Shown one piece after another: positions 5,567 through 9,653 of a DNA stretch of 64,000 bases (position 1 is the first letter of the stretch; every line of letters starts with the position of its first letter). Source of the stretch: Planctomycetota bacterium (GTDB lineage Bacteria > Planctomycetota > Planctomycetia > Gemmatales > Gemmataceae); the NCBI GenBank assembly GCA_003669555.1, contig QWOS01000025.1:1-64000 (forward strand). Reading direction: 5' to 3'. The notes beneath the pieces are model-generated. The model was not told the origin of the DNA. It worked only from the letters and a program-made list of their open reading frames with translations, and searched no databases. The position numbers and the translations under genes are program-made.

Positions 5567-6895
5567 TCAGGGTTTCCACCAGGCATCCAGTTTTTTCTCA
5601 AGGCGCGCCGCATCCTCAGCCCGGGTTGCCAGCAGGTTTTTTTCCTCCAGAGGATCCGCGGCCAGGTCATACAGTTCTTTGCCCAGGCCACGCCCGGGTT
5701 TTTTTTCAGCTTGCACGGTGGCGGGGTTGGGGACCACCAATTTCAGCGGACCGTCCACCATAAAGCGGTAGGTCAGGCTGGCGGCGGGCCGTTCCAGGTC
5801 GGCGGCATCGTGCTGAAAGCACTCGCCAAAGACGGGGCCCCGGTTCTTCACCACCGGGTCTGCCAGCAGATTGATGCCAGCCATGGAAACCGGGGGCTGG
5901 ATCCCCGCCGCCAGGAGCAGGGTGGTGGTGAGATCCAGGCTGCTGACGGGTGTTTCCAGACGGGCAGGCCGGAGGGTGCCCGGTTGATGCAGCAAAATGG
6001 GGGTGCGTAGCCCGGTGTCGTACTGGGACTGTTTGCTGTCCGGCATGAATCGAGGCTTGTCGGGGTCCTGAATCCAGCCATTATCGCTCAGGTGGGCCAC
6101 CAGGGTGTTGTTGGTCATGCCACGCTTTTCCAGCTGGCTCTGGAGTTGGCCAACTGATTCGTCAAACCATTCACACATCGCCCAGTATTTCGCCAAGTGG
6201 ATCGACGGAGTTTTGTCGCGGTATTTGGCCAGCAGGCGCTCCGGGGGGTTGTGCGGCTGGTGCGGCAGCATCGGGGCATACCAGATGAAAAAAGGCTTGC
6301 CCCCGGCCTGGGCCTCGTCGAGGAAACGAATGATTGGCTCCAGGGTGGTACGGCCAATTTCCAGGCCCGCATCGCCATGACGGCCCCCTTTTTCGGCCAG
6401 ACCGTGGGTCATGGCGTGGGTGAAGCCGCTGGCTTTGGGGTCTCCCATCCACCATTTGCCCGTTTGCAGGGTGAGATAGCCGGCATCCTGCAACAGGGCC
6501 GGCAAGCGCGGCTGCTCCCGCAGGAAGCCCTGCATTCTCGCCACCTGACGCAGAAAAACCGGATCCTTGTAGCGCGCCCCCGGGGCAATGCCGGCCGGCA
6601 GGGGCGGTTCGTTGCTGGTGAGGCGGGTCTGGTGTGGGTAGCGGCCCGTCAATAGCGCCGAAAGCGAAGGGCTGCACAGGCTGCTGGTAACATAACCGTG
6701 AGGAAAATTTCGGCCTGAACGCGCCATCCGGTCCAGATTGGGCGTCTGGATATGTGGGTGGCCCATGAAGCCGAAGTCGGTCCAGGCCTGATCATCCCCG
6801 ACGATGAGCAGGATATTGGGCCGGGGAGTGCTGGCGGGCTGCCCTGAAAGCAGGCCGCTGAGGAGTGCCTGGCACAGCATCGGCAGTAAAGGCAT
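5567..6895 (-). CDS. Sulfatase family hydrolase (exported)
   Basis: The 442-aa protein has an N-terminal hydrophobic segment and then P-N-I-L-L-I-V-G-D-D (metal-binding Asp34/Asp35). The formylglycine position is in S-S-L-C-S-P-S-L-S-A-L-L-T-G-R-Y (Cys74), and a D-N-G-W metal site occurs near residue 270. Type I sulfatases hydrolyse sulfate esters after the Cys is oxidised to formylglycine. The usual C-x-P-x-R motif here has Leu instead of Arg. I believe variants of this type (C-S/C-P-S-L) occur in planctomycete sulfatase paralogues. The C-terminal end, E-L-Y-D-L-A-A-D-P-L-E-E-K-N-L, is classic for arylsulfatase-like enzymes. A role in degrading sulfated polysaccharides is inferred from the family. 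Confidence 0.9.
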   Translation of the reverse strand: MPLLPMLCQALLSGLLSGQPASTPRPNILLIVGDDQAWTDFGFMGHPHIQTPNLDRMARSGRNFPHGYVTSSLCSPSLSALLTGRYPHQTRLTSNEPPLPAGIAPGARYKDPVFLRQVARMQGFLREQPRLPALLQDAGYLTLQTGKWWMGDPKASGFTHAMTHGLAEKGGRHGDAGLEIGRTTLEPIIRFLDEAQAGGKPFFIWYAPMLPHQPHNPPERLLAKYRDKTPSIHLAKYWAMCEWFDESVGQLQSQLEKRGMTNNTLVAHLSDNGWIQDPDKPRFMPDSKQSQYDTGLRTPILLHQPGTLRPARLETPVSSLDLTTTLLLAAGIQPPVSMAGINLLADPVVKNRGPVFGECFQHDAADLERPAASLTYRFMVDGPLKLVVPNPATVQAEKKPGRGLGKELYDLAADPLEEKNLLATRAEDAARLEKKLDAWWKP

Positions 6896-7029: not shown

Positions 7030-8274
7030 ATGATCCGTTGCAGATTTGCTGGCATACTCCTCGGGACCGTGGCCCTGATTCTGTCGTTGCCAGGGCTGGG
7101 CCGGGCCCAACGCGGTGGCTTCAACCACGACGAAAAAGCCAGTCAGGAAAATGGCTGGCTATCGGGTTATCGGCAGGGGCTGGATCAGGCCCGCAAACTG
7201 CGCAAACCCATGATGCTGGTCTTCCGTTGCGTGCCCTGAACGGATTGCCACGAATTTGACGGGCAGGTTGTCCGTCTCGAAAAAATTCGCAAAGAGTCGG
7301 AAGGGTTTGTCAAGGTTCGCCTCACCCGCATTGAGGAGTCGAACCTGAACCTGTTCAAGTTCGATTACGACCTGACTTTCATGGTCTTTTTCCTGGATGC
7401 GGACGAACGGATCTATGCCCGTTATGGGGGCCGTGATTCCAAAGATGCCGATAACCGCCAGTCCCTTGAGGGCTTGCGGCATGTGATGGCCTCGGTGCTG
7501 CGGACCCATGCGGAGGAACCGGGCCGGATCATTCCCAAGCCGGCGGGCAAGGCTGTTTTTTCCAGTGAGTTGGGAGGTGGCGGCAGGGGGTGCATGCACT
7601 GTCACCAGGTCCAGGAGGCCATCAACCGCAATCTGGCCAATCGGCTGGAATGGGATCCTGAAACCCCGTGGCGTTATCCTTTGCCCGAAAATGTGGGCAT
7701 CCGCCTCCAGGTCGACCGGGGCAACCTGGTGGAGAAGGTGATTCCCGGCTCGGCGGCAGCCAGGGCTGGCATCGAGCCAGGTGACCTGCTGCGTCAGGCG
7801 GGAGCCAATCCGGTCCATTCGTTCGCCGACATGCAGCAAGCGCTGGAGGAGGCGCCACGCGAAGGAAGCTTGCGGGTGGTTTATCGCCGTGTCGGCAAAG
7901 ACAGCGAAGTCACTCTGGAGCTGCCACCACGGTGGAAGAAAACCGACATCAGCTGGCGAACCTCATTGCGGAACCTGGTGCCGACATTGCCCCTGTCAGG
8001 CAAAAACCTCACCACGGAAGACCGAAAGGCTCTCGGCCTCACGGAAAAGGCGCTGGCCTTCAGGCAGCGCGACAACATTGCCCAGTCAGCGTCTGGTGCT
8101 GGCTTCAAACCCGGGGACATCGTCCTCGGCGCGGAGGGCAGGGAAGTGGAACTCGATGCCTACGGGTTTCAGGATTGGGTTCGCAGGGAGTATTTGGTGG
8201 GTGATACCATCCGGGTGCGCATCCTCAGGGATGGCAAACAGATGGTGCTGCCACTGGTTTTGGGCCGGCGCTGA
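7030..8274 (+). CDS. Thioredoxin/PDZ selenoprotein candidate (in-frame UGA read as Sec)
   Basis: Read through one UGA (7237-7239), this is a 414-aa exported protein. It has a signal peptide (about 1-26), then a thioredoxin-like domain with C67-V-P-U70-T-D-C73 in the active-site position. A C-M-H-C-H heme c attachment motif is at 188-192, followed by two PDZ domains (about 218-300 and 335-414). The frame upstream and downstream of the UGA is the same, and the 141 bases after it translate as typical thioredoxin-fold sequence, so a simple stop is unlikely. A SECIS-like hairpin follows at 7258-7276. From memory, a Trx7/PDZ (seleno)protein family exists in planctomycetes. The likely role is periplasmic redox chemistry. 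The start at 7030 has A-G-G-G-G-A upstream. It probably forms an operon with the EF-hand gene 17 bases downstream. If UGA were a true stop, only a 69-aa fragment would be made. Confidence 0.85.
7258..7276 (+). promoter_or_regulatory. SECIS-like stem-loop for selenocysteine insertion
   Basis: GACGGGC (7258-7264) pairs with GTCCGTC (7270-7276), seven pairs with one G-U, around the loop AGGTT. The first loop base is 26 bases after the UGA, so 25 bases intervene. Bacterial SECIS elements bound by SelB are described as a short stem with a small loop having G near its start, about 16-37 bases from the UGA. This hairpin fits each point. It lies inside the coding sequence, as expected in bacteria. 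Confidence 0.8.
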
Positions 8275-8291: not shown

Positions 8292-9653
8292 ATGCAAGCG
8301 ATTGTCAAAAGGATGTGGTTGGCTGGTTTACTGGGCCTGGTACCCATCACCGCCGCCCAGGCGCAACCACCTGCCCAGGGGCGAGGAGCCACGGAGCCCA
8401 GTCTGGCGGAAAGGCTGAAAGGCCTGGATGCCAATAAGGATGGCAAAATCACCCGGGAAGAACTGGAAAAAGGCCAGGGTGGCGAGTTGATGCAGCGCCT
8501 GTTCAACCGGACGGATGCCAACAAGGACGGTGAGATCACCCAGGAAGAAATCCAGCGCCTGGTCACCCAGATGGAGGCCGTGCAAGGCCGCCCAGGTCGC
8601 GGTGAAGGTCGTGGCGAAGGTCGTGGTCCCGGCGGCGAGGGCCGTGGCGAAGGTCGCGGTCCCGGCGGCGAGGGCCGTGGCGAAGGTCGTGGTCCCGGCG
8701 GCGAGGGTCGCGGCGAAGGGCGTGGACCCGGCGGTGAGGGTCGTGGTCCTGGCGGTGAAGATCGCCCCCCCGGTGGTTTTGGGGGTGGTTTGATGCCGCA
8801 AGGTTTACTGGAACGGCTGAACCTCGGTGCCGACCAGCGCGAGAAAGTAACGGCCCTGCAGAAGGAGCATGGCGCCAAACAGGATGAACTGCGCCAAAAG
8901 ACCATGACCAGGATCATGGAGGTCCTGAACGACGAGCAGCGTGAGCAATTCCAGCGTCTGCGCCAGGAAATGCAGGGTGGGCGCGAGGGACCCGGCCACC
9001 GTCCCGGTGCCAATGGCCCAGGGGAGCGTCGGGGTGAGGGTGACAGGGGGCTCAGGCCGGAATATTCCCCGCCACCGGGTGGGGGAAGGCCCGGTGATCC
9101 GGACGGCCCTGGTGGCCCCGGAGGTCCTGGTGGCCCCGGTGGGCGGCCCGGGTTTGGTCGCCGGCCGTCTAGCGCTGGTCCCGATCCGCTTCCCCCCGAG
9201 TTTGGCGGACAGCCAGGCGGACCTGGTGGTCCGGGTGGCCCGCGTGGCAACATGTTTCCGGGTGGTCCCGGCGGGCCAGGGGGTGGATTTGGCGGTGGTG
9301 GTTTCATGATGATGATGCCGCAGCCTGGAATTTTGCTTCCACCCCCCGTGGTGGAGCAACTGAAGCTGACCCCTGAGCAGCGGGAAAAACTCGACAAGCT
9401 CCAGAAGGAAACCACCACGAATCTGGAAAAAATCCTTACCGAGGAGCAAAGGAAGCGGTTGAAAGAGATGGGCGAAGGGATGCGTGGCGGCTTTGGTGGC
9501 CCCGGCTTCCCGGGTGGTGCCGGTTTTCCGGGCGGTAGGGGTGGCCCCGGCAGCGCCCCCGGCGGTCCAGGTGGGCCCGGCGGCCCGGGTGGCCCCGGTG
9601 GTGTGCCCAATGATGAGGGCGGGGGGCGTCCTGCTCGTCCCGGCAGCGAGTGA
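8292..9653 (+). CDS. EF-hand protein with Gly/Pro-rich and LTXXQ-like helical segments
   Basis: This 453-aa exported protein has a signal peptide ending near A-A-Q-A-Q and two canonical EF-hand loops (D-A-N-K-D-G-K-I-T and D-A-N-K-D-G-E-I-T, about residues 45-90). A repeat tract of R-G-P-G-G-E-G-R-G-E-G units follows. Two Gln/Lys/Glu-rich helical stretches (L-G-A-D-Q-R-E-K and L-T-P-E-Q-R-E-K) separated by Gly-Pro-rich linkers complete it. The helices resemble the LTXXQ motif of Spy/CpxP-like proteins, which suggests a binding or chaperone-like role, but this is only a similarity. The start follows G-G-G-A-G-G by a good spacing, 17 bases after the thioredoxin/PDZ gene. A strong terminator ends the unit at 9676. 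Confidence 0.85.
   Translation: MQAIVKRMWLAGLLGLVPITAAQAQPPAQGRGATEPSLAERLKGLDANKDGKITREELEKGQGGELMQRLFNRTDANKDGEITQEEIQRLVTQMEAVQGRPGRGEGRGEGRGPGGEGRGEGRGPGGEGRGEGRGPGGEGRGEGRGPGGEGRGPGGEDRPPGGFGGGLMPQGLLERLNLGADQREKVTALQKEHGAKQDELRQKTMTRIMEVLNDEQREQFQRLRQEMQGGREGPGHRPGANGPGERRGEGDRGLRPEYSPPPGGGRPGDPDGPGGPGGPGGPGGRPGFGRRPSSAGPDPLPPEFGGQPGGPGGPGGPRGNMFPGGPGGPGGGFGGGGFMMMMPQPGILLPPPVVEQLKLTPEQREKLDKLQKETTTNLEKILTEEQRKRLKEMGEGMRGGFGGPGFPGGAGFPGGRGGPGSAPGGPGGPGGPGGPGGVPNDEGGGRPARPGSE
8595..8765. repeat. 33-bp minisatellite in EF-hand gene
   Basis: About four copies of a 33-bp unit code for the 11-residue repeat R-G-P-G-G-E-G-R-G-E-G. Copies differ by a few synonymous changes. Replication slippage could change the linker length without breaking the frame. 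Confidence 0.75.

Follow-up and report, generated by a model that had tools for sequence, protein, structure and literature searches.

The closest described system to the gene analysed here is the NCBIfam family NF041199, Trx7/PDZ domain-containing (seleno)protein, which a 2026 review of selenoproteomes already lists, without known function, with the motif CxxU and one selenocysteine (Sec) residue (PMC13188914). Motifs with two Sec residues (UxxU) are listed in Prx-like thiol:disulfide oxidoreductases and metal-binding proteins (PMC13188914, PMC2398784). The gene lies in the window (the whole stretch of DNA that was analysed, 64,000 nt) of a freshwater planctomycete, and is a further member of this catalogued, uncharacterised selenoprotein family. 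Its product matches NF041199 with 426.5 bits (curated cut-off, 300 bits) over model positions 2–388 of 390, and all 48 aligned homologues match the same model; the Trx7/PDZ family named in the preliminary description thus exists. In domain content, full-length match, and the CxxU motif (PMC13188914), nothing sets the gene apart from the family, to which it adds a well-supported selenoprotein. What is mainly added to the family description is the occurrence of double-Sec members with apparently one SECIS element, and an invariant CxHCH motif.

The structure predicted by AlphaFold2 using 48 homologues (mean pLDDT, 90.6; pTM, 0.86) combines a thioredoxin fold with a C-terminal part that resembles DegP, DegQ, and RseP in its tandem PDZ domains, with a similar layout but without the protease domain of these proteins. 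The thioredoxin fold is shared with 2l57, AGR2/AGR3, and 3fk8, and U70 and C73 align with the usual CxxC of solved thioredoxin-fold proteins, namely that of 2l57 and 3fk8. In contrast to the protein studied here, the aligned thioredoxin-fold chains (2l57, AGR2/AGR3, and 3fk8) have no additional Cys or Sec at the position corresponding to residue 67, and match without the PDZ part. A search of a plasmid collection gave weak matches, to the PDZ part only. The features of the locus are compiled in Table 1.

Table 1. Coordinates of the gene, its predicted elements, and the downstream neighbour (positions in the window)
Feature	Positions	Strand	Details and basis
Trx7/PDZ selenoprotein gene	7030..8274	+	414 residues with Sec70; frame, NF041199 426.5 bits, same-genus orthologues
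Probable Sec signal peptide, residues 1-26 (...LSLPGLGRA/Q)	7030..7107	+	By eye from translation
Thioredoxin_7 domain, residues 43-124, across the UGA	7156..7401	+	Pfam PF13899, E 6.6e-11
In-frame UGA, Sec70; C67 7228-7230, C73 7246-7248	7237..7239	+	Frame, homologue alignment, CxxC register to solved thioredoxin-fold proteins
Bacterial SECIS-type hairpin (predicted) GACGGGCAGGUUGUCCGUC	7258..7276	+	8 bp stem, GGU loop, start 18 nt after UGA
CxHCH motif (CMHCH, residues 188-192)	7591..7605	+	Between Trx and PDZ parts; homologue scan
First PDZ domain, residues 223-298	7696..7923	+	Pfam PF13180 (PDZ_2), E 5.9e-15
Second PDZ-like domain, residues ~340-410	8047..8259	+	Pfam PDZ_2 in two stretches; tandem-PDZ structure match
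EF-hand protein gene	8292..9653	+	17 bp downstream; genus-conserved, hardly beyond

The gene frame consists of 414 sense codons, with the UGA counted in, and the final TGA stop (8272–8274, codon 415), and its only internal TGA is codon 70, located in the sequence R66-C67-V-P-U70-T-D-C73. The single internal UGA noted in the preliminary description is therefore correct, and only its count of 415 codons needs adjusting, to 414 plus the stop. Orthologues in three genomes of the same genus (71–72% identity) each contain that same single UGA. Given these orthologues and the phylum-wide occurrence of UGA or Cys at this position, the conservation of the codon-70 UGA is, as judged from the alignments, far beyond chance. 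A mechanical scan of the whole window for a UGA followed by a hairpin yielded 15 candidates, among which only that at 7237 lies in a recognised protein and has a Cys codon to either side of the UGA. The gene annotation is corrected accordingly, where a standard gene caller would split the gene.

Residues at positions 67, 70, and 73 were counted over 97 distinct homologues. At position 70, UGA occurs in 88 and Cys in nine, with no other residue; relatives, suggested earlier as a check on this codon, thus either extend beyond the UGA or have Cys there. Exchange of UGA with Cys alone at redox positions is a classic sign of selenocysteine, and the distribution at codon 70 supports this reading. 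Position 67 is C or U in all 97 homologues, the 67–70 pairs being C-U (64), U-U (24), and C-C (nine), and 93 homologues have Cys at position 73. The U-x-x-C motif emphasised in the preliminary description does coincide with the usual CxxC register, but it is part of a fuller form, C67-x-x-U70-x-x-C73. As read from the alignment, the active site of the family is the triad [C/U]xxUxxC, in which the additional partner at position 67 is more strictly kept than C73, in agreement with the motif given in the literature as 'CxxU' (PMC13188914). Cys73 is replaced in L030, L134, L148, and L149 (by S, A, D, and H, respectively), with C/U67 and U70 retained, and these four homologues suggest that the 67–70 pair may be the essential one.

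A hairpin shortly 3′ of the UGA carries the SECIS feature of a conserved G in the loop, and is predicted to bind SelB. The 30-nt segment holding it has a folding z-score of −2.84. Across 49 UGA-containing homologues, pairing is kept in 90.6% of the pair cells and 14 double changes occur; none of 500 shuffles reached these values, and controls slid along the alignment were far lower. The helix covaries (columns 26–36 with G-C, A-U, and C-G), and RNAalifold alone called just three inner pairs. Nucleotide-level constraint on the codons of the gene is highest over the hairpin (codons 77–82; z, 4.2–16.3) in comparison with the remaining codons (mean, 0.9; maximum, 4.9): the UGA forms have the near-fixed codons GAC GGG CAG GTT GTC CGT, and the Cys forms are without the hairpin sequence (for example, GAT GCC GAA GTG GCC AGC). 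The pairing and constraint strongly support assignment of this segment as a putative bacterial SECIS-type element inside the coding sequence.

The least improbable of the alternative explanations is that codon 70 was originally Cys (TGC) and became TGA through misreading or mutation, so that the gene is broken, as could be argued from the CVPC Cys forms in the same class (L017 and L025) and from the source assembly (3.43 Mb in 135 contigs, 59.7% complete), in which no selA, selB, or tRNA-Sec was found above the cut-off. Six selB matches in this genome were all below the cut-off (best, 163 bits versus 242), as were seven tRNA-Sec matches, five of which were checked with ARAGORN and proved to be Leu, Ser, and Trp tRNAs. 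The same genome does encode SelD (344.9 bits, above the cut-off). All three same-genus genomes contain selA and selB, and one of them (G294) has a clear tRNA-SeC(tca); in these genomes selAB is flanked by a priA-like gene on one side and by a SIS-domain/carA-like pair on the other (names read from the translations). Close matches to the priA-like and carA-like flanking proteins are also absent from the source assembly, and at 59.7% completeness the absence of selA, selB, and tRNA-Sec, which speaks against the selenocysteine reading, is therefore probably uninformative, the selAB-bearing segment most likely having not been assembled. The proposed check for selB and tRNA-Sec is thus negative in the assembly itself, where selD is present, but positive in the genus-mates for selA and selB and in one of them for tRNA-Sec. 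A sequencing error or pseudogene is in practice refuted by the conserved UGA, which recurs in three independent same-genus assemblies, answering the concern about a misread TGC or TGG at 7237, as well as across the family; moreover, the frame stays open and conserved as far as the final stop, and the hairpin codons typical of UGA forms are intact. We consider this explanation highly improbable.

It is extremely improbable that the locus consists of two genes, one for a short leader peptide of 69 residues and a second, further downstream, starting at 7381. The plain-code ORF expected from that position is indeed present (297 aa), but the Thioredoxin_7 and NF041199 alignments run unbroken over the UGA, and the Cys homologues (e.g., L017 and L025), which are single uninterrupted genes, contradict such a division. 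Reading of UGA as another amino acid by reassignment or general suppression (e.g., Trp) has nothing specific in its favour, the readthrough frame alone fitting either reading, and its probability is negligible in view of the UGA that also terminates the gene, the exchange with Cys only, the SECIS hairpin tracking UGA, and the presence of SelD.

Altogether, the gene almost certainly encodes an NF041199 Trx7/PDZ selenoprotein, in which UGA70 is read as Sec by means of SelB, tRNA-Sec, and the in-gene hairpin, and which is likely an exported thioredoxin-fold redox protein with PDZ domains. The selenocysteine assignment of the preliminary description is strongly supported by the UGA/Cys exchange, the SECIS hairpin, the family match, SelD, and the Sec machinery of the genus. 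This conclusion rests on sequence evidence (the UGA, the hairpin with its codon constraint, family membership, and the genus Sec machinery), and we infer export, redox chemistry, and substrates. In the proposed mechanism, SelB and tRNA-Sec would decode the codon-70 UGA as Sec, directed by the hairpin within the coding sequence. The signal-peptide-like N-terminus makes export plausible, and the protein is probably secreted, most likely to the periplasm. C67, Sec70, and C73 would form the redox centre of the thioredoxin fold, probably cycling through a C67–Sec70 selenenylsulfide with C73 as a third thiol, and the two PDZ domains may recognise partners or substrates by their C-terminal tails. The most likely role would be that of a periplasmic selenol-dependent thiol–disulfide oxidoreductase held near its partners by the PDZ domains.

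In contrast to the one Sec listed for NF041199 (PMC13188914), about a quarter of the homologues have two in-frame UGAs three codons apart, giving UxxU at positions 67 and 70 (L015, L016, L018, L020, L022–L024, L026–L030, L033, L035, L036, L038, L040, L041, and others). Apparently, one SECIS hairpin serves both UGAs. The Prx-like and metal-binding UxxU proteins similarly have two Sec residues in a redox or metal protein, but belong to different families (PF00578 and NF041115).

The CxHCH motif was found in 59 of 59 homologues scanned and in 96 of 97 in the larger set; H160 is present in 81 of the 97. CxxCH is the attachment motif of c-type haem, and CxHCH is possibly a site of c-type haem attachment or of metal binding. 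The motif is like that of c-type cytochromes, but the protein has no recognised cytochrome domain in Pfam (only a weak Cytochrome_CBB3 match, E 0.19, below the cut-off), and the homologue alignment contains no invariant Met as a distal ligand. Neither the family name nor the NF041199 table in PMC13188914 mentions CxHCH, and its invariance offers a concrete biochemical test. It is conceivable, if rather unlikely, that the family represents a periplasmic selenium and haem redox carrier, in which electrons would be exchanged between the [C/U]xxUxxC centre and haem c at CxHCH and the tandem PDZ domains would tether partners, some members having a U67–U70 diselenide derived from two UGAs and one SECIS.

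Matches were present in 101 of 294 genomes sampled across the phylum, and the stops within these matches were nearly all TGA. A scan of genome contigs used a query alignment of nine close homologues. The family also has members in a small number of MAGs that bear Armatimonadota or Verrucomicrobiota labels (as given). In a maximum-likelihood tree of 94 rows, the window gene falls in a well-supported clade of single-Sec Planctomycetia forms, many labelled Gemmataceae. The tree implies about ten changes between UxxU and the other forms, and Cys forms are nested among Sec forms in three places. Among the other genomes, selB was found in 22 of the 24 that have UGA forms versus two of the 12 that have only Cys forms (Fisher p = 1.5e-5, an indicative value since the genomes are related). 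The homologues thus switch repeatedly among CxxU, UxxU, and CxxC, the nested Cys forms occurring mostly where the Sec machinery is absent, and this switching makes the family well suited, as a natural series, to studying what is gained by a second selenium. The selD gene of the source genome (L044:1342-2502, C61) is itself a selenoprotein gene and likewise has an in-frame UGA at its active site (LIDYASCAGUAGKL), with a hairpin whose CAGGUU loop is similar to that of the window gene. Outside the genus, the EF-hand neighbour is retained in just one close relative (L049), and a divergent sulfatase gene upstream (5567–6895, minus strand) is retained within the genus.
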